A DNA stretch of 33,440 nt from an uncultured Candidatus Nitrosopumilus sp. (GTDB lineage: Archaea > Thermoproteota > Nitrososphaeria > Nitrososphaerales > Nitrosopumilaceae): assembly GCA_905612275.1 (NCBI GenBank), contig CAJQRM010000034.1, positions 1-33,440 of the forward strand, in the 5' to 3' direction. Under the pieces are notes generated by a model. That model made no database searches, was not told the DNA's origin, and saw only the letters and a program-made list of their open reading frames with translations. Of the stretch, positions 3,417-16,123 are shown in pieces (the stretch's first letter is position 1; the number at the start of each line of letters is the position of its first letter). Both the position numbers and the translations under genes were made by a program.

Positions 3417-3468
3417 TTTTTAATTTCAATATCAGAATGTTTAAAGTTCTTTGTTAGCTATATTTTTC

Positions 3469-6057
3469 ATGATGTTATCTTCTAAATTCACATTTTCACT
3501 TATTGTAATAGCAGCTTTACTAGTATCTGGATCAGGTCTTGTGATTCAAGACTCATTTGCTGCAATTGATGCACCAGAATTTACTGCTATTCACCTTAAC
3601 ACGACAGCAACTCTAGTTACGTTTGACAAATCAGTTAACGGAACTTTAGCCATTTTAGATTGGACTATAATGGTATCATCAACTGGAACTGATGGTGATA
3701 TTCTAACTGATGTTGCAATTACTAATGTTGCCAATGCAACTAGTACAGGAGTTGGACAAACTGTACCAGGTGATGGTGATAAAAAAACTGGAGTCAGTAG
3801 TGGCACAGGAGTTGTTGGACTAGGATACATCAATGGTACAGATATTGTTCTCATACATTCTGCTATTCCCTCTGATGCAAGATATTTCGTAAATTATACT
3901 AACAATGCTGCTTCATTAGCTGATGCAATTAGACAGTTTGGTCAAATACACGCCAACGAAGCTGGTTCAGTTGAAGGTTCACTAGGTGGTGGTCATGGAG
4001 GTGCAACCGGTGCTGCTGTAGTAGAGAATGCATCTATCAAATATTTGAAAATTGGATCCAATGCAACAGCTGTTGATTATATGTCTCCAACTGTAGTTTC
4101 TGCTGAGAAAACTGGTCCAAAAAAAATTGCAGTTTTAATGTCTGAAACTGTAGTAAATATTAATTCAACTGGTTCTGCTTTTGTTCTTTCTGGATTACAT
4201 GATTCTGTTGTAGCTAGTCTGATTGCCACTAATAGCACTAACACTATCTATCTTACAACTCGAAACTTGATTGATCCAATTAATGACACTCCTGCAATTA
4301 CTTTGAGTTATAATTCAGATCCTGATGGTGATAACGTAGGTATCGATAGTTGGATTACTGATGGTGTAAACACTGGTAATTATACTACTCTCGGCACTGA
4401 TGGCAAATACACGTTAAAGCATCAACAATCAGGGGCTGGACACGGTAATAGATTATACAATTTCACTGGTTTGGTTGTCACCTATCCTACTGATTTTAGT
4501 CCTGACGCTCAACGTTATCCTCCACATATTCATGATGAGGTTTCTGTCTCTATCAATTCTGATGAATTATATGATTTAAAAATACACGATAACATCACTT
4601 CAAATATTTTAGCATCTGTTGGTGACACAATTTCTGTAACTGTGAGTATTGGTGATGATTATTTTTTGTCTGGTATTTCTAGAGCCACTCTAATTACAAA
4701 TTATGCTCATGAACCTTCAGGCATGAATAATTATTTTAGAACAAATCATGATGAACTTGGTCAAACAGGTTTATCTATTTATGAATGGAATCAAAATACT
4801 TTTGATCAAAAATATGATTATGCTGGAGTCATCTCTTGGGATGAATCTATTATAAAAATTGATAAAAGAATTGAAACTTATCATGAATTTGTTGGACCTC
4901 TGTTATATGATGAAAATGAATTGTTTGTTACATATTTGATGACATTTGATGATGCTATGCCAACAAGTCAAGTTGGTATAAAAATTAGTGATACAAATTA
5001 TAATAATTTTAAATCTTTTCTACCATTTACTTTGGAAGTACTGCCAAATGATACAATAGTAATTACAGAACCCGCTGAAGAACCCGCTGAAGAACCCGCT
5101 GAAGAACCCGCTGAAGAATCCACTTCTCTTGAATCTGAACTTGTAGAGATAACTCTAGTTACCAATAGTAATTCATATGAAAATGGCGATAAAGTGATTG
5201 TAACTGGTCAAATTCAAAATTATGATTTCACTTCCATGAAAGGTAAAGATATTTTGTATGATGTTATTTCTCCTGAAAATATAGTTTTATCTTCAGGTCA
5301 TATTGCACCTAATTCTGATGGATCTTTTTATTTTACAACTTTTGCAATGGATACAATGTGGAAAACAGATGGAAATTATGTTTTTAGTGTTGATCTGAGA
5401 TCTCTTAAACAAACCATAGACATTTCTTATGATAATACTCAATTTGAAACTCCTATACCTGAATCTGAAATAACATCTGTCCCAATAATTACTGAAGCAA
5501 CACCTGAAGCAACACCTGAAGCAATACCTGAAGCAATACCTGAAGCAATACCTGAAGCAATACCTGAAGCAATACCTGAAGCAATACCTGAAGCATCTAA
5601 TTCTAATATCATATGTGGAACTGGAACTGAGGATGTAAACGGTATTTGTCAAGTTGTAAAAACTGAAGATAAATCATCCAAAGGTGGCGGTTGTCTAATT
5701 GCAACAGCAGCTTATGGTTCTGAGATGGCACCACAAGTTCAATTACTTAGAGAAATTCGTGATAACCAATTAATGAATACAGAATCTGGTTCAGCATTTA
5801 TGACAGGATTTAATGAATTGTATTATTCATTCTCACCAATTATAGCTGATTATGAGCGTGAAAATCCATACTTCAAAGAAGCTGTCAAGTTAGCTATTAC
5901 TCCCATGATTTCCACTCTATCACTAATGGAGAATGCAGAAACTGAGTCAGAAGTTTTGAGTATTGGATTATCCGTAATTGCACTCAATTTGGGAATGTAT
6001 CTTGGAGTTCCAGCTATAGTTATAATTGGAATTAAAAAACGATCGACAATCTATTGA
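3469..6057 (+). CDS. Large exported protein with Pro/Glu repeats and a CFI-box C-terminal domain
   Basis: This is an 862-residue surface protein. The start is taken at ATG 3469 (or 3472), just before a signal peptide (SLIVIAALLVSGSGLVI, then DSFAA). The N-terminal 380 residues look like beta-sandwich domains with many Asn/Thr sites and a GGGHGGATG-type glycine segment. Residues about 410-535 match the C-terminal beta domain of the preceding FG-GAP protein. Two low-complexity linkers follow, (EEPA)4 and eight units of the EA(T/I)P type. The C-terminus has GGGCLIATAAYGS, the hallmark of the CFI-box-CTERM family, followed by an amphipathic region and one transmembrane segment (about 835-855) with a basic tail IKKRSTIY. 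Known family feature: this C-terminal module recurs on otherwise unrelated exported proteins. Inferred: membrane-anchored envelope protein. No enzymatic motif is seen. Confidence 0.82.
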   Translation: MMLSSKFTFSLIVIAALLVSGSGLVIQDSFAAIDAPEFTAIHLNTTATLVTFDKSVNGTLAILDWTIMVSSTGTDGDILTDVAITNVANATSTGVGQTVPGDGDKKTGVSSGTGVVGLGYINGTDIVLIHSAIPSDARYFVNYTNNAASLADAIRQFGQIHANEAGSVEGSLGGGHGGATGAAVVENASIKYLKIGSNATAVDYMSPTVVSAEKTGPKKIAVLMSETVVNINSTGSAFVLSGLHDSVVASLIATNSTNTIYLTTRNLIDPINDTPAITLSYNSDPDGDNVGIDSWITDGVNTGNYTTLGTDGKYTLKHQQSGAGHGNRLYNFTGLVVTYPTDFSPDAQRYPPHIHDEVSVSINSDELYDLKIHDNITSNILASVGDTISVTVSIGDDYFLSGISRATLITNYAHEPSGMNNYFRTNHDELGQTGLSIYEWNQNTFDQKYDYAGVISWDESIIKIDKRIETYHEFVGPLLYDENELFVTYLMTFDDAMPTSQVGIKISDTNYNNFKSFLPFTLEVLPNDTIVITEPAEEPAEEPAEEPAEESTSLESELVEITLVTNSNSYENGDKVIVTGQIQNYDFTSMKGKDILYDVISPENIVLSSGHIAPNSDGSFYFTTFAMDTMWKTDGNYVFSVDLRSLKQTIDISYDNTQFETPIPESEITSVPIITEATPEATPEAIPEAIPEAIPEAIPEAIPEAIPEASNSNIICGTGTEDVNGICQVVKTEDKSSKGGGCLIATAAYGSEMAPQVQLLREIRDNQLMNTESGSAFMTGFNELYYSFSPIIADYERENPYFKEAVKLAITPMISTLSLMENAETESEVLSIGLSVIALNLGMYLGVPAIVIIGIKKRSTIY
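5071..5118 (+). repeat. 12-bp tandem repeat x4 encoding PAEE
   Basis: Four exact copies of cccgctgaagaa lie in frame in the exported protein gene. They encode a Pro/Ala/Glu linker. The unit length keeps the frame whatever the copy number. Confidence 0.95.
5494..5589 (+). repeat. 12-bp tandem repeat x8 encoding EATP/EAIP
   Basis: Two copies of gaagcaacacct are followed by six of gaagcaatacct, in frame, forming an acidic Pro-rich spacer before the CFI-box module. The single base change that separates the two unit types is itself amplified, so the array grew after that mutation. Confidence 0.95.
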
Positions 6058-6140: not shown

Positions 6141-6416
6141 ATGCGTGATAAAAGAAGTAAATTACAAATTTATTTTGATGTATTTTCTGCAATTTTATTA
6201 GAAAAACAAGATAATGAAGTGATATCTAAAACTAGACTTCAACACAAAAGCAATACCTCATATGATAAACTATTGAAATATCTTAATGAGATGACTGAGA
6301 AAGGACTAATTAAAATGGAAAATGAAATAGATACTACTGAATTAGGAACTAAATTTTATCAAGACTATTCTAGTGTTAATGATTTAATTAATAAAATTAC
6401 TCAAAGATTAACTTAG
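6141..6416 (+). CDS. Small winged-helix DNA-binding protein (ArnR1-like HTH)
   Basis: This 91-residue protein looks like a single winged helix-turn-helix domain. Helix 1 is IYFDVFSAILL, the HTH is SKTRLQHKSNTSYDKLLKYLNEM, and the wing is GLIKMENEIDTTELGTKFYQDY. The family (ArnR1-like/HTH_45) is abundant in thaumarchaea and is a DNA-binding regulator family; the target here is unknown. Its stop overlaps the stop of the convergent MEDS gene in a TTAG tetranucleotide, so the two are packed tail to tail. It lies at the edge of the putative light-response cluster, so it is a candidate regulator of it, but nothing in the sequence proves this. Confidence 0.75.
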   Translation: MRDKRSKLQIYFDVFSAILLEKQDNEVISKTRLQHKSNTSYDKLLKYLNEMTEKGLIKMENEIDTTELGTKFYQDYSSVNDLINKITQRLT

Positions 6417-6973
6417 ACAAAATTAAATTTTTCTATTTTGTTTTCTTTTGTAAGAAATAAGATTTCGTGATGTGAATCAAGTAAATTTTTCATAAATTGT
6501 GGTGCCAATTCTTTATCAACACTTGGTACATGAAATGAACAAATAAAATTTCCTGGAATTTTATGAAAATTATCATCCACACATTGCTCTATTTCTTGCA
6601 TTGATTCTGTTTTTTTATCTGTATTAAAATCAAAATAATGTGTTGATACCACTCTGATTTTTCCATCTTGTGGTAATGATTCCACTTTTGCTGAAATCAT
6701 TTTTTCATAATCCTCAAATTTTTTTGGAATTGGAATTATGTTTAGTAATCCCTTTTCAATATTATTTTGAACATCAATCCCAAATTCCTTCATATTTTCT
6801 TTTAATTTTTCAGTATCATTAGTTGTATAGAAACAACGTTGCCCCATTTCCAAACCTTTTTTAATAAAATTAAATTCTATTTCTTCAGCCTTTTTTTGTT
6901 CTTCATGAAATAATAGTATGTGTGCATTGTCAAGTGATTCTAAATGATCATTACTAATCTCTGTATAACTCAT
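6413..6973 (-). CDS. MEDS-domain sensor protein
   Basis: This 186-residue protein looks like a stand-alone MEDS domain (methanogen/methylotroph DcmR sensory domain), a RecA-like fold without an obvious Walker A. Matching segments are NAHILLFHEE, QRCFYTTND, then the region with RVVSTHYFDFNTD and the C-terminal NFICSFHVPSV strand. MEDS domains are known as ligand or signal sensors fused to regulators or kinases; here no output domain is present, so it may act through a partner. The frame is open to 7039, but I prefer the internal ATG at 6973 (MSYTEI). The longer form would run into the region upstream of the divergent gene at 7179 and adds a low-complexity, non-homologous start. Confidence 0.72.
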   Translation of the reverse strand: MSYTEISNDHLESLDNAHILLFHEEQKKAEEIEFNFIKKGLEMGQRCFYTTNDTEKLKENMKEFGIDVQNNIEKGLLNIIPIPKKFEDYEKMISAKVESLPQDGKIRVVSTHYFDFNTDKKTESMQEIEQCVDDNFHKIPGNFICSFHVPSVDKELAPQFMKNLLDSHHEILFLTKENKIEKFNFV

Positions 6974-7178
6974 TTTAATATTATTTTTTGAATAATTTCT
7001 AGTATTTAGAGCTTTGAACATTCTACCAGCTGGTGCCACAGAAGTAAATGGGTTGATACATGTATCTGCTTTAACATCTAGATTTTCTTATTTTTTTAAA
7101 AAATTAATGGATCTAAAAATATCTAGATACTCATCATGGTGCGTAATCGGATTAAATACTAAATCAATATTCTATTCA

Positions 7179-8042
7179 ATGGCATATTTGAGAGTAAAAT
7201 CCATCCGTGACCAAAAATACCTCTATCTAGTAAAAAGTCACTGGGATTCTAAAAAAAAGACGTCAAAACAGAGTATTATCAAATATTTGGGAATAGAATC
7301 TGATGTATCTCTTTCTGATATTCCTGAAAATTTTAGAGATTCTGAAAAAATAATTGATTATTTTATGAATCAAAAATATTTTCAACCTACAGTTCAAAAT
7401 GAAATAACTAAAAAACTTCAAAAAGATTTACTTTCATCTTTCAAAAATAGTGATTATATTGAAGCAAATTCTTTACTTGAATCATACAAAAAAATATATG
7501 GATTTGAGTCATTTCTTACTAATGTTCTGATTCCACTAATTGAAGAAATAGAATCATTGGGATATTCCAAAAAAATTGATTTAGGTACGCAAACAACTTG
7601 TTATAATGCAGTACAAGATTTAATGAATTTAATTTTAGAAAATAATACTATTCCATTAAAAAAGAAAAAAATCTTGATTTGTGTACCTTATGGTGAACAG
7701 CATACATTCGGTACAAAAGTACTTGAATCCCAACTTTTATCTAACGGAAATGTTGTTTACAATCTTTCTCCTTTTACCCCTGTTTCAACTATAATAGAAT
7801 CTATTGAATACAATAATCCTGATTTTATTTTTATTTCCATCACCCTTGATGAAAATACTTTATCTGCTAAAAGAATGATTCAAAAAATTAATGATCAATA
7901 TACAATTCCAATTATTGTTGGAGGTCAAGCTGTAAAAAATGATTCAGAAAACTGGAATTCTTCTATTGGACAAAATCTTTCAATTACAAAATTTTTAAAA
8001 CTTATTCAATCCAAGAAATCTGAAATCATCCAAACAGTATAG
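7179..8042 (+). CDS. B12-binding-domain protein, CarH/LitR-like C-terminal half
   Basis: The 287-residue protein has an N-terminal basic beta motif (AYLRVKSIRDQKYLYLVKS, then KQSIIKYLG) like that seen at the start of some transposases and thaumarchaeal proteins. A helical segment (about 88-155) and a Rossmann-like domain (about 163-280) follow, the arrangement of cobalamin-binding regulators. GEQHTFG at 172-178 fits the E-x-H-x-x-G lower-ligand motif (His175) of CarH/LitR. The Trp and Glu-His expected in the upper four-helix part are not evident (Tyr129 and TQTT there). There is no MerR HTH. ATG 7179 is preferred over an upstream TTG that would overlap the divergent gene's promoter. It lies next to the photolyase cluster, so a light- or cobalamin-sensing role is inferred. 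Confidence 0.68.
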   Translation: MAYLRVKSIRDQKYLYLVKSHWDSKKKTSKQSIIKYLGIESDVSLSDIPENFRDSEKIIDYFMNQKYFQPTVQNEITKKLQKDLLSSFKNSDYIEANSLLESYKKIYGFESFLTNVLIPLIEEIESLGYSKKIDLGTQTTCYNAVQDLMNLILENNTIPLKKKKILICVPYGEQHTFGTKVLESQLLSNGNVVYNLSPFTPVSTIIESIEYNNPDFIFISITLDENTLSAKRMIQKINDQYTIPIIVGGQAVKNDSENWNSSIGQNLSITKFLKLIQSKKSEIIQTV

Positions 8043-8128: not shown

Positions 8129-8680
8129 TTATATTGTAATTTTAATTTTTAATTGTTCATTGATGTCCTCAATTACCTTTGTAAGTATATCTGAATTTGA
8201 TGTAAAGAATCCTCTATACTCGTGATCTCCTATGTCTTCTGCTACTAGTCCAAATGGTCCATTATCGTCTTTTGTCACCACAATCCACATTGGAGAAATA
8301 TTTGTTCCATCACAACTTACTACTTCTGCAGATGGTGGGGGGTGTGGGGCTAAATCTGGATTATTAAAATTACCAATTATCCATGCTTTTGAAATTTTAT
8401 CTAAAATTTCCCTGTAACGCTCTTCAACGTACTTGTATCTGGCTTCCGTTTCAAAAGTAGCTAATAATGGTGTGTTATGTTTTACTGCATAATTTTCTAA
8501 TAAAATACTTAGCCTGTATAGTTCCTTTTTACCTGTTCTAAAATTAACATAATTTGCTTTACGATATTCCTCTAGTGTCCATAGTATGTTATGGTTTGTA
8601 AGATCTGTATTTTTTATTTCTACAAATGTTGGAAATTTATTCCATATGTCATCAATAAAACTTACAAAATGTTCATTCAT
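8129..8680 (-). CDS. DICT sensory-domain protein, copy 1
   Basis: This 183-residue protein matches the DICT domain. Its core is LYRLSILLENYA, PLLATFE, YVEERY and KAWIIGNF, with a C-terminal part GPFGLVAED and RGFFTSNSD. It is clearly paralogous to the protein at 10113-10667. DICT domains are known as sensory modules in diguanylate cyclases and two-component systems, and have been predicted to act in light response; here the domain stands alone with a short N-terminal helical extension. The gene lies 64 nt downstream of photolyase on the same strand, but it has its own promoter-like element: TTGGCACTA 49 nt upstream of the ATG and TATA-like TATATTATATA between them. It may therefore be both read through and separately transcribed. 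Confidence 0.75.
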   Translation of the reverse strand: MNEHFVSFIDDIWNKFPTFVEIKNTDLTNHNILWTLEEYRKANYVNFRTGKKELYRLSILLENYAVKHNTPLLATFETEARYKYVEERYREILDKISKAWIIGNFNNPDLAPHPPPSAEVVSCDGTNISPMWIVVTKDDNGPFGLVAEDIGDHEYRGFFTSNSDILTKVIEDINEQLKIKITI

Positions 8681-8744: not shown

Positions 8745-10091
8745 TTATTTTTGTGATTTAAAAATTTGTTTTGTTTTTTCTGCTTCAATTTTATGAATCA
8801 ATATTGGTTTTGGATATTTTAATTTTTTTGGAAATTCTTTCCACAAATTATGAATGATTTTTGATTCTATTTTTTCTAATTCAGGAATCCACTTTTTAAT
8901 ATAATCACAATTAACATCGAATCTTTCTTGCTGTCTCCATGGATTAAAAATTCGAAAATATGGCACTGAATCACATCCTGTTGATGCTGCCCATTGCCAA
9001 TTACCTGAATTTACAGCTGGATCATAATCAATTAATTTTTCTGCAAAATATTTTTCCCCCCACCTCCAATTGATATGTAGATCTTTAGTCAGAAATGATG
9101 CTACAATCATTCTAACTCTATTGTGCATAAATCCTGTCTGATTTAATTGTCTCATTCCTGCATCAACAATTGGAAATCCTGTTTTTCCTTCACTCCATTT
9201 TTTAAAAGATTCTTTAGATTTTGACCATGGTATTTTTTGGAATTTTTGTCTAAATGATGTTTTTTGAGCGTGTGGAAAATGAAATAATATGTAGCTAAAA
9301 AATTCTCGCCAGTATATTTCGCCCATTATTGTATGATCTGAGCCTAAAATCTCTTTAATCTGGCTATGAATTTCTCTAATTGAAATTGTCCCAAATTTGT
9401 TATGCGCTGAAAGCATTGTTGTTTGGTTTAATCCTGGAAAATCTCTTATTTTGTCATAATTTCTAAATTTATCTAAGTTTCTCAAAATCTTTAATGCTTC
9501 TCTACGTCCTCCTATAATTTCATTGTTTTTTATTTTAGAATTTTTAATCTTATCTTCTGAAATAATTTCTTTTGAATAATTTTTTTTAATATTTTTAATG
9601 ATCTTTCTGATTGGTATTTGTTTTGCTTTTTTATAAAAAAATGAATAAATTGTGTACGGTGAACCTTTATTGGTTTTTATTTCATTTGGATTATGAAGTA
9701 AAAAATCTAATGTACTATGAAATGATATTTTATTTTTTTTACAATTTTGATATATTTTTTCATCTCGATTTTGTGAATAATTGGTAAAATCTGTATTTAG
9801 AAACACTGCATCTATTTTATATTTTTTAATTATCTTGTCTAATATTTTTTCTGGCTTTCCTTCTAGTATTTGTAATCTGACTCCTTTTTTGTTTAATTCT
9901 CTGTCTAAATCTACTAATGATTCATTAAGAAAATCCCATCTAAATTTTGAATCTTTAAAATTTTTAATCAAATTTTTATCATAGATAAAACAAGGAATTA
10001 CTTCTGTAGAGTTTTGAAGTGACTCCATTAATCCTACATTGTCTTCTAATCTTAAATCTCTACGGAAAATGAATAATGATTTTTTATACAT
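8745..10091 (-). CDS. phrB: Deoxyribodipyrimidine (DNA) photolyase
   Basis: This 448-residue FAD-dependent photolyase repairs UV-induced pyrimidine dimers with blue light. The N-terminal alpha/beta antenna domain begins KSLFIFRRDLRLEDN. The C-terminal helical FAD domain has the family signature MGEIYWREFF, EGKTGFPIVDAGMRQL, FMHNRVRM and NWQWAASTGCDSVPYFRIFNP (given in parts). By hand alignment with E. coli PhrB the electron-transfer tryptophans correspond to Trp365, Trp342 and Trp289, and the FAD-contacting Asn to Asn361, so it looks active as a class I CPD photolyase. It starts 21 nt after the stop of DICT copy 2 on the same strand, so the two are probably one operon under the TTGGCACTA promoter at 10718. 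Photolyase fits an organism exposed to sunlight. Confidence 0.95.
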   Translation of the reverse strand: MYKKSLFIFRRDLRLEDNVGLMESLQNSTEVIPCFIYDKNLIKNFKDSKFRWDFLNESLVDLDRELNKKGVRLQILEGKPEKILDKIIKKYKIDAVFLNTDFTNYSQNRDEKIYQNCKKNKISFHSTLDFLLHNPNEIKTNKGSPYTIYSFFYKKAKQIPIRKIIKNIKKNYSKEIISEDKIKNSKIKNNEIIGGRREALKILRNLDKFRNYDKIRDFPGLNQTTMLSAHNKFGTISIREIHSQIKEILGSDHTIMGEIYWREFFSYILFHFPHAQKTSFRQKFQKIPWSKSKESFKKWSEGKTGFPIVDAGMRQLNQTGFMHNRVRMIVASFLTKDLHINWRWGEKYFAEKLIDYDPAVNSGNWQWAASTGCDSVPYFRIFNPWRQQERFDVNCDYIKKWIPELEKIESKIIHNLWKEFPKKLKYPKPILIHKIEAEKTKQIFKSQK

Positions 10092-10112: not shown

Positions 10113-10667
10113 TTATTGAATATCAAATTTACTTCCTAATGTTTTACCCATTACATTTAGGGCATGTCTGCATACATTGGAATTAAGTGTGAAAAAGCCT
10201 CTGAATTTCCCATCCTCATATTCTTCAGCTATTAATCCAAATGGCCCATATGGCCCTCTGGTAAACACCGACCATACATTTGCTAAGTTTGTATTACTGC
10301 AACTTAGAAATTCTGAATTTGGTAATACTACATCTGTTGGAATCACTTCATCATCAAAATCTGCAATAATCCATACTTTAGGCATATCTTTGACCATTTT
10401 TTGATATCTTTCCTTAACATATGAGAATTTTGCAATTTTTTCAAATGTTGCTAGTAATGGTTCTTTATTTTCTTGAGCATACTTTTCAATTATTTTACTC
10501 AGATGGTATAGTGGTTTTCTACCTGCATCAAAATTATGATAACCTGCTTCAATGAATTGTTCTAGTTTCCATATTGGTAAAATTTCGTTATCTAAATTAT
10601 GCCATTCCGACAATTGTGGAAATTCTTCCCATACTTCATGTACAAAATTACCATAAGGATTTTTCAT
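10113..10667 (-). CDS. DICT sensory-domain protein, copy 2 (first gene of the photolyase operon)
   Basis: This 184-residue paralogue of the protein at 8129-8680 shares LYHLSKIIEKYA, PLLATFE, YVKERY, KVWIIADF, GPFGLIAEE and RGFFTLNS. It differs mainly in the loop before the final sheet: copy 1 has a proline-rich stretch with PHPPPS, copy 2 has EVIPTDVVLPN. It is a stand-alone DICT domain. It precedes phrB by 21 nt, the closest link in the cluster, which suggests its product is made with photolyase and has a light-linked role. Its promoter region (10668-10778) is shared with the divergent gene at 10779 and contains TTGGCACTA 50 nt from this ATG plus a TTTATAA TATA-like element. Confidence 0.75.
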   Translation of the reverse strand: MKNPYGNFVHEVWEEFPQLSEWHNLDNEILPIWKLEQFIEAGYHNFDAGRKPLYHLSKIIEKYAQENKEPLLATFEKIAKFSYVKERYQKMVKDMPKVWIIADFDDEVIPTDVVLPNSEFLSCSNTNLANVWSVFTRGPYGPFGLIAEEYEDGKFRGFFTLNSNVCRHALNVMGKTLGSKFDIQ

Positions 10668-10726: not shown

Positions 10727-10778
10727 TTATTTTTTAATTTCGTAATTGTTTTTATTCTATAAATCTTTAATCACCGTA

Positions 10779-11186
10779 ATGTCAAGATATGAAAAACTTT
10801 TGCATATGCTGATGGATTATGATTCAGGAATAATGTTTACTGCCATTAGTGATACTTCTGGAAATATTTTGTGGAATACTATTAGGGATGATTCTAAAGT
10901 CCAAGTTCCTTTGCCTGAAATAAAAAAGACTCTTGTACATGAAGCTGTAGACTGGATTACTCGTTGTAAAATTGAAGACTCTGATGATCTTGGTAGAGCA
11001 ATGTATCACATTGCATCATTTGAAAAACTTAAACAAATTACCGTTCCCCTAGATGCATTTCATTTATTGATGGTATATGTTGATAATAGTCCTCTCAATA
11101 AAACAAAAACAAAAAGTTATGGTCGTTATGTTGAAATGGGGAAAATCATGTCTATTGTTGACTTTGTTAATACTTTTGAGGAGTAG
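10779..11186 (+). CDS. DUF6659-like small thaumarchaeal protein, copy A
   Basis: The 135-residue cytosolic protein has no signal or membrane segment. It looks like a compact alpha/beta fold: RYEKLLHMLMDYDSGIMFTA, then the strand ISDTSGNILWN, a helical middle, FEKLKQITVPLD, LLMVYVD and a final helix EMGKIMSIVDFV. It is paralogous to the next gene. The layout (N-terminal helix, strand with SD-G-LW, a regular TIPL strand) resembles DUF6659, a family of unknown function common in ammonia-oxidising archaea, and loosely recalls roadblock/profilin-like sensor folds. ATG 10779 is preferred to TTG 10746 because a TATA-like element lies about 20 nt upstream and the paralogue starts at the same place. 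It is divergent from the photolyase operon. Confidence 0.65.
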   Translation: MSRYEKLLHMLMDYDSGIMFTAISDTSGNILWNTIRDDSKVQVPLPEIKKTLVHEAVDWITRCKIEDSDDLGRAMYHIASFEKLKQITVPLDAFHLLMVYVDNSPLNKTKTKSYGRYVEMGKIMSIVDFVNTFEE

Positions 11187-11263: not shown

Positions 11264-11665
11264 ATGGAAAAATATAAACAACTTTTGAATATGGTTATGG
11301 ATTTTAATGAATCAGTACGTTTTGCAGCTGTATCTGATTCACATGGTCAATTACTTTGGAACAGTCAACGTAATGGTGTAAGCAATATTGTTCCTATTGA
11401 AAAAACAAAATCAACTATGTCTCGATCTAGGAGTGAATGGGACAATTATGCCTCTGCCTCTGAACATGTTGGAAATGGATTGTACTCTATTACCTCTTAT
11501 TCAAAAATTAAAAGAATTACTATTCCTCTTTCTGATGGTAAAATGCTTTTCATTAGCGTAAATAACAAACCTATGAAAAATGCTAAAAACACTAGTTATG
11601 GTCATCTTGTGGAAATGGGTGAAATCCTTTCTATTGTTGAGTTTGTTGAATCTCAAAATTTTTAA
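11264..11665 (+). CDS. DUF6659-like small thaumarchaeal protein, copy B
   Basis: This 133-residue paralogue of copy A aligns along its whole length (YKQLLNMVMDF, AAVSDSHGQLLWNSQR, KIKRITIPLSDGKMLFISV, SYGHLVEMGEILSIVEFVE). Conserved points are the SD-x-x-G-x-(I/L)-LWN strand, the K-(I/L)-K-x-IT-(V/I)-PL strand and the SYG-x-x-VEMG-x-I-x-SIV C-terminus. It carries the TTGGCACTA element found before the DICT genes, tying it to the photolyase cluster by a probable shared regulator. The family has no known biochemical function; the small sensor-like fold is only an impression. Confidence 0.68.
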   Translation: MEKYKQLLNMVMDFNESVRFAAVSDSHGQLLWNSQRNGVSNIVPIEKTKSTMSRSRSEWDNYASASEHVGNGLYSITSYSKIKRITIPLSDGKMLFISVNNKPMKNAKNTSYGHLVEMGEILSIVEFVESQNF

Positions 11666-15232: not shown

Positions 15233-16123
15233 ATGGCAATAATAAAAAACAAATCTCCTGTACTATTCTTTTATAATGATTCTAAAAAATGGTTGATGAA
15301 TATTTCAAAAAAAGAATCACTTCATACTCACATTGGTGTGCTTAAACATGCAGATGCAATTGGAAAAGAATATGGTTCTAGATTAATGACAAACAAAGAC
15401 AAGTACGTCTACTTACTTGAGCCAACAATGTATGATTACATAATGAAAATACAACACGGCACTCAAATTGTTTATCCAAAAGATCTTGGCTATATTGCTG
15501 CACGTGCAGGAATTCAAGATGGTCAAAAAATTCTTGAAATTGGAACTGGAAGTGGATCTATGACTTCATTTGTTGCAAGTATTGTAAAACCTAGAGGACA
15601 TGTTTACACATTTGATGTTGACGAGAAATTTATGAAGATTGCTGAAAAAAATATTCGTAGAACTGGTCTTTCTAAATATATCACTCAAACTAATTTAGAT
15701 CTAAAAACTTCTAAAGAAATTCCAGTTACTGAAATGGATGTTGCATTAATTGATTTAGGTGATCCTTGGGTTGTTCTTCCTAAAGTAAGACAGATGCTAA
15801 AAGGAAGTGGTTGTATATTTGCAATCTGTCCAACTATGAATCAATTAGAAAAATTAACTATTGCCTTAATTGAAAATGAATTTACTGATATTGAATCAAC
15901 TGAGCACATTATAAGAACAATTGCAGCTAGAGAAGGAAAAACTAGACATTCATTCCAGGGAATTGGACATACCACTTACCTATGTTTTGCAAGAAAAGCA
16001 TTCTTTGGAAGGACAGCAAAAACCACAGCAAAAACCACAGCAAAAACCACAGCAAAAACCACAGCAAAAACCACCGCAAAAACCATTAAAGCAAAAACCA
16101 TTAAGAAAAGTACAAAAAACTAG
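15233..16123 (+). CDS. trmI: tRNA (adenine-N1)-methyltransferase, TrmI family
   Basis: The 296-residue SAM-dependent enzyme methylates N1 of adenine 57/58 in the tRNA T-loop. An N-terminal small beta domain (about 1-75) precedes a Rossmann methyltransferase domain with motif I at about 100-110 (ILEIGTGSGS), motif II VYTFDVDEKF, and VALIDLGDPWVVL, where Asp-x-x-x-Pro-Trp is typical of TrmI. Length to about residue 265 is normal. The last 30 residues are an odd Thr/Ala/Lys tail, six TTAK-type units plus KAKTIKKS, made by a 12-bp DNA repeat. It is very basic, so it may add RNA affinity, and is not part of the fold. It is followed by nnrD 61 nt downstream. Confidence 0.88.
   Translation: MAIIKNKSPVLFFYNDSKKWLMNISKKESLHTHIGVLKHADAIGKEYGSRLMTNKDKYVYLLEPTMYDYIMKIQHGTQIVYPKDLGYIAARAGIQDGQKILEIGTGSGSMTSFVASIVKPRGHVYTFDVDEKFMKIAEKNIRRTGLSKYITQTNLDLKTSKEIPVTEMDVALIDLGDPWVVLPKVRQMLKGSGCIFAICPTMNQLEKLTIALIENEFTDIESTEHIIRTIAAREGKTRHSFQGIGHTTYLCFARKAFFGRTAKTTAKTTAKTTAKTTAKTTAKTIKAKTIKKSTKN
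16013..16084 (+). repeat. 12-bp tandem repeat x6 in the trmI tail
   Basis: Five exact acagcaaaaacc units and one accgcaaaaacc unit encode a Thr/Ala/Lys tail. This is the third in-frame 12-bp array in the window. It ends 39 nt before the trmI stop codon. Confidence 0.95.

Follow-up and report, generated by a model that had tools for sequence, protein, structure and literature searches.

A CarH-family protein of Nitrosopumilus without the adenosylcobalamin-contacting motif: a possible CarA-like paralogue of a candidate archaeal B12 photoreceptor

Introduction

What does a CarH-type B12 protein respond to when the residues that contact adenosylcobalamin (AdoCbl) are missing from it, and through which domain does it act when it has no MerR head? 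Both questions are raised by a gene at positions 7179–8042 (plus strand) of a 33,440-nucleotide stretch of DNA from an uncultured Candidatus Nitrosopumilus sp., referred to here as the window, whose host is an ammonia-oxidising archaeon of sunlit water. The open reading frame was confirmed, and encodes a protein of 287 residues (here called A) plus a stop codon. The frame is also open further upstream, with a TTG at 7014; in the orthologues, the protein begins with the residue that corresponds to the codon at 7179.

A sequence-only reading had described A as a B12-binding regulator that might sense another form of cobalamin or act through a different output. What stands of that description is a B12-domain relative of CarH with a conserved lower-ligand histidine, a non-MerR head and a lost adenosyl motif. 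Rather than a stand-alone B12 sensor, however, we favour, with a probability of about one half, a CarA-like paralogue that would be blind to the adenosyl group and would work with MEDS and winged-helix partners in a response to light or photodamage. This preference is due to the existence of a paralogue with the full motif (here called B), the MEDS and HTH_45 neighbours of A, a palindrome, and a head with transposase kinship.

Domain Architecture and Fold of Protein A

Protein A (7179–8042, plus strand) comprises an IS1634-type beta head, a four-helix bundle and a Rossmann B12-binding domain. The AlphaFold2 model (pLDDT 80.5, from 39 aligned sequences) places the helical bundle (residues about 70–154; 7386–7640, plus strand), a predicted cap over the upper face of B12, before the Rossmann domain (7665–7928, plus strand), in the order anticipated from the sequence. 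Foldseek searches with this model returned photocobilin 8j2w and the B12 domains of Thermus CarH as top matches (E 1e-9 to 1e-10), with a TM-score on target of about 0.63–0.76 against the CarH B12-domain chains. The predicted protein thus has the B12 fold, with the helical bundle plus Rossmann B12 domain expected of CarH and class I LitR. As for sequence profiles, Pfam B12-binding was recognised above cut-off (residues 164–258, E 4.1e-10), a Pfam profile search gave no match of A to B12-binding_2, and the best NCBIfam match was CarH, at 28.6 of 400 bits and far under its cut-off.

In sequence, the Rossmann part of A also resembles methionine synthase and corrinoid proteins, as might be expected of a corrinoid carrier for methyl transfer, similar to MtaC or MetH. 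This role is nevertheless very improbable, given that CarH and photocobilin rank first in the fold search, that A shares its N-terminal head with its CarH-like paralogue, and that no corrinoid-type methyltransferase was seen near the gene.

The head (residues 1–54; 7179–7340, plus strand) is a basic beta domain with three predicted strands (residues 2–9, 12–23, and 28–39). No match to a MerR winged helix was found in it by profile search, in agreement with the earlier description of a short basic beta N-terminus in place of a MerR helix-turn-helix. Its hhalign alignment with the N-termini of 11 IS1634 transposases (loci L213 and L215–L224) spans 45 columns at a probability of 96% (pairwise E 3.9e-9), and all 18 heads scored higher against the IS1634 profile than all 1800 shuffled heads. 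Searches of Pfam, PDB profiles, and plasmid proteins gave no match to the head at useful scores, a plant MCAfunc match (E 0.007) was treated as chance, and the head appeared in no other proteins of the genomes searched with it. The DDE catalytic domain of IS1634 is absent from A, the remainder of which is the B12 domain. Paralogue B holds a head of the same non-MerR, three-strand beta kind, and the remote kinship with a transposase domain, itself putatively DNA-binding, suggests that this head may contact DNA in both proteins. If so, a transposase N-terminal domain would have been reused as the head of a regulator.

A Retained Lower Face and a Lost AdoCbl-Contacting Motif

The motif GEQHTFG, already recognised as the cobalamin lower-ligand motif of CarH/LitR, occupies residues 172–178 of A, and the alignment of orthologues showed His175 (codon at 7701–7703) to be conserved in 14 out of 14. 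The classic B12 motif D/ExHx2G/Px41SxT/Vx22-27GG, as defined in PMC9304148, is intact and carried by the Rossmann domain with exact spacings (E173-x-H175-xx-G178-x41-S220-x-T222-x25-G248-G249). The retention of this lower-face motif suggests that some cobalamin is still bound, which weighs against the CarA-like reading.

The W-x9-EH motif, on the other hand, is missing from all 14 A orthologues found in 95 genomes of the genus, which bears out the earlier remark that neither the Trp nor the Glu-His could be seen. In the alignment of orthologues, Gly128 (7560–7562, plus strand) stands at the position of the CarH Trp, being Gly in all 14 A proteins and Trp in all B proteins, while Thr139-Thr140 align with the E-H pair in every A orthologue. 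The segment IDLGTQTTCYN (residues 133–143; 7575–7607, plus strand) does not vary among the 14 orthologues and stands where B has the stretch ATEHVASN. In a set of 68 distinct proteins collected purely on similarity, W-x9-EH is present in 54 out of 54 B and in none of the 14 A; this unfiltered count was used instead of a pattern-based scan, which is biased towards E-H. The motif was also present in 89 of the 89 B proteins of a larger set, partly selected for E-H. The loss of the AdoCbl-contacting motif is therefore real and family-wide in A.

In Thermus CarH, Trp131, Glu141, and His142 contact AdoCbl, and the upper ligand in the light is His132 (PMC11796333). The earlier proposal of a missing upper ligand needs correction on this point. 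The position of His132 is variable in A (Y, S, N, T or I), and the intact paralogue B lacks His there as well.

A study using SignatureFinder defined light-responsive B12 domains by the elements GxxW, EH, GxxH, and GxxxP (PMC11796333), of which A holds GxxH and lacks GxxW, EH, and GxxxP. The fold and lower ligand that A has in common with such domains, together with its light-linked neighbourhood in several genomes, would be compatible with an AdoCbl photoreceptor in which other residues hold and release the adenosyl group, although the absence of three out of four signature elements of the validated domains makes it improbable. In the favoured reading, A preserves head, fold and a lower-face cobalamin site while an invariant new motif has taken the place of the AdoCbl-contacting cap, and it is expected to have lost its function as an AdoCbl photoswitch.

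Paralogue B and the Origin of A

The relatives of A split into two sets: the A orthologues, with 68–90% identity, and the commoner paralogue B, with about 36%. Among the 95 genomes of the genus, A was found in 14, B in about 59, and both in 12; the two A genomes where B was not found are 56% and 95% complete. Named records of the A/B family come from Nitrosopumilus, Nitrosarchaeum, Nitrosotenuis, and Nitrosopelagicus, and a scan of the phylum showed that proteins joining the whole head to the B12 domain also occur in further families belonging to the same order.

The genome of the window encodes a B copy with the full motif (G000:C31:26034-26873; locus L053, 9023-9874). The model of B has the same fold as A (pLDDT 86.8) and matches dark-state CarH more closely than A does (TM-score on target of about 0.83), and Pfam B12-binding_2 is recognised in B with an E-value of 2.9e-11. 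GxxW, EH, GxxH, and GxxxP are all present in most B proteins of the genus, and the B of Nitrosopelagicus lacks the G of GxxxP. In Nitrosopumilus, B is usually accompanied by an FAD enzyme resembling amine oxidases and phytoene desaturases, a TFB, and an NmrA-type reductase, which also adjoin the B copy of the window's genome. A photolyase gene adjoins B in several lineages, with differing orientations, and in one genome (G031) B lies beside the photolyase island, in a place comparable to that of A in the window.

From its sequence, B is a candidate archaeal B12 photoreceptor; a literature search covering mainly freely accessible papers found no paper on archaeal CarH-type B12 photoreceptors. 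The ancestral form B would combine the IS1634-type beta head, probably its DNA-binding part, with a full AdoCbl photosensor domain. It would probably operate like CarH, as an AdoCbl-bound oligomer in the dark that is released by light, and would control photoprotective genes such as those of the photolyase and the carotenoid-desaturase-like oxidoreductase.

Protein A would be a derived paralogue of this regulator family. It is monophyletic (100/100) and sits on a long stem branch. It may have arisen by duplication or by transfer: a recent duplication of the B of the genus is not supported, as this B forms its own clade excluding A, and the topology test did not reject a grouping of A with the B of Nitrosopelagicus (p-AU 0.13). 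Median dN/dS is 0.17 for A, against 0.12 for B, so A is under purifying selection and is not in decay. The long stem and the loss of canonical residues might be read as signs of a copy decaying without function, but this is hardly credible in view of that dN/dS, of frames that are intact in 14 genomes, and of the invariant new motif and the conserved promoter-proximal palindrome, by which decay is contradicted.

Genetic Neighbourhood of A

Divergent from A lies the gene of a MEDS (DcmR sensory) domain protein (6413–6973, minus strand), followed by the convergent gene of an HTH_45 winged-helix protein (6141–6416, plus strand), which is conserved beside it. A MEDS orthologue with at least 78% identity was found in 12 of the 14 genomes that hold A, whereas the 81 others have none (Fisher p 2e-13, with relatedness ignored), and in the two A genomes without one, A is near a contig end; both the MEDS and the winged-helix genes are found beside A wherever the contig reaches. 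In Nitrosopelagicus, it is the intact B that has MEDS and HTH_45 as neighbours, and B is followed there by a homologue of the DICT-like genes that flank photolyase in the window. Fusions of light-responsive B12 domains to MEDS and DICT are on record (PMC11796333).

On the other side of A, a DNA photolyase is encoded at 8745–10091 (minus strand). Photolyase is present in 11 of the 14 A genomes versus 14 of the 81 others, and in at least 5 A genomes it lies close to A; tight linkage as a general rule was therefore rejected. The photolyase gene is flanked by those of two paralogues, a DICT-like protein with a weak match of E 0.13 (8129–8680, minus strand) and a protein of the same DICT-like family with no Pfam match of its own (10113–10667, minus strand). 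The DICT assignment of these neighbours (E 0.04–0.13) is tentative. Further along come two paired small proteins belonging to no Pfam family (10746–11186 and 11264–11665), which several lineages conserve next to the B12 gene and photolyase. Elsewhere in the window, a large predicted surface protein (3451–6057) holds EPAEEPAEE and PEAIPEAIPEA repeats at 5300–5650, and a methyltransferase-like protein (15233–16123) ends in a Lys-Thr-Thr-Ala repeat tail (16000–16123).

A Palindrome Upstream of the Putative Promoter

Alignment of the regions upstream of A revealed a conserved block holding a 16-bp palindrome, ACTCACC-NN-GGTGAGT (7129–7144, no strand assigned), a candidate operator with two mismatches in the window. 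In whole genomes, it is present at the gap between A and MEDS in 14 out of 14 A genomes, and at most two further matches were found per genome. With up to two mismatches, 17 occurrences were detected in 1.34 Mb of loci, each of them either between A and MEDS or immediately before the Nitrosopelagicus MEDS gene. A genome-wide regulon was rejected, as each genome holds about one convincing site, and most of the inspected matches away from the locus lie within unrelated housekeeping genes or between them. The palindrome also occurs at 4952–4967 of locus L128, and in two genera it accompanies the MEDS/HTH_45 pair. As one Nitrosopelagicus genome holds MEDS, HTH_45, and a perfect palindrome apart from B, the element may serve MEDS/HTH_45 instead of A.

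Seven nucleotides separate the palindrome from a TATA-like TTAAATA (7152–7158, plus strand), conserved in the upstream alignment and probably part of the promoter of A. It lies some 24 nt upstream of the start codon, a spacing that suggests a leaderless transcript.

Comparison with Known Systems

By analogy, the closest precedent for A is CarA from myxobacteria. This paralogue of CarH does not depend on B12: it retains the B12 motif, the Trp of W-x9-EH is gone, and it represses without B12 under the control of a partner, the antirepressor CarS (PMC9304148, PMC8156234). Like CarA, A is a paralogue of an intact CarH-type protein in the same genome, is found near light-response genes, and has lost that Trp while keeping the classic B12 motif. 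The parallel is imperfect because CarA keeps E-H, where A holds Thr139-Thr140. Moreover, CarA holds a MerR winged-helix head and A an IS1634-type head; and the input of CarA is CarS, whereas A is located with MEDS and HTH_45. CarA always co-occurs with CarH; B was found in 12 of the 14 A genomes.

CarA also bears on the main rival to a partner-driven A, namely, a sensor of a non-adenosyl cobalamin (aquo-, methyl- or thiolato-), or of a small ligand or redox signal, at the open upper face, where TQTTCYN, perhaps through Cys141, would form a new upper site. The fully kept lower-face motif, the invariance of residues 133–143 across the 14 orthologues, and the replacement of Trp by Gly, which opens the upper face, are in its favour. 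However, conservation does not tell whether these residues contact a cofactor or have a structural or partner-binding role, and CarA acts without needing B12 despite its kept B12 motif, so that we consider such a sensor rather unlikely.

Other members of the family have features in common with A. CarH and class I LitR from Thermus, Myxococcus, and Bacillus also hold the helical bundle, the Rossmann B12 domain, and E-x-H-xx-G, and B additionally resembles them in W-x9-EH and in the nearby photolyase or carotenoid-type genes; unlike them, A is archaeal and lacks the MerR head and W-x9-EH. The class II LitR PmlR2 is the effector of a short LOV protein encoded by the adjacent gene (PMC9758184), and is, like A, a CarH-family regulator not expected to use B12. 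The partner proposed for A is likewise encoded next door, although it is a MEDS protein instead of a light-sensing LOV protein, and class II LitR kept only the B12-binding_2 bundle, whereas A kept the Rossmann B12 motif and has an altered bundle. Finally, photocobilins and the light-responsive B12 domains of the CtMerR type hold the same B12 domain as A (PMC10979010, PMC11796333), but keep GxxW and EH.

Proposed Function and Significance

In the CarA-like reading, A would regulate DNA independently of AdoCbl, as CarA does beside CarH in myxobacteria, and would receive its input from partners, most plausibly the adjacent MEDS protein and the HTH_45 winged helix, which would have the palindrome upstream of the A promoter in common with A. 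Its motifs, their conservation, the gene order and the palindrome were observed and its fold was predicted, and from these we infer DNA binding, cobalamin binding, input from partners, relevance to light, and blindness to AdoCbl for this protein. A bolder proposal, with odds well short of even, is that ammonia-oxidising archaea hold B12 photoreceptors with a domesticated transposase head, and that one lineage evolved an adenosyl-blind derivative with a new invariant cobalamin-facing motif, which would sense a signal other than AdoCbl photolysis and be wired to MEDS and the winged helix through a dedicated palindrome.

The A/B pair looks like a so far unreported archaeal light-response system in which one copy has been rewired. 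Light is well known to inhibit ammonia oxidation (PMC9239080), and the A/B family supplies direct sensor candidates for ammonia-oxidising archaea, with B as the AdoCbl light sensor and A as a natural loss-of-motif comparison to B within the same cell. If this is true, A would represent a second, independent transition from a CarH-like to a CarA-like regulator.
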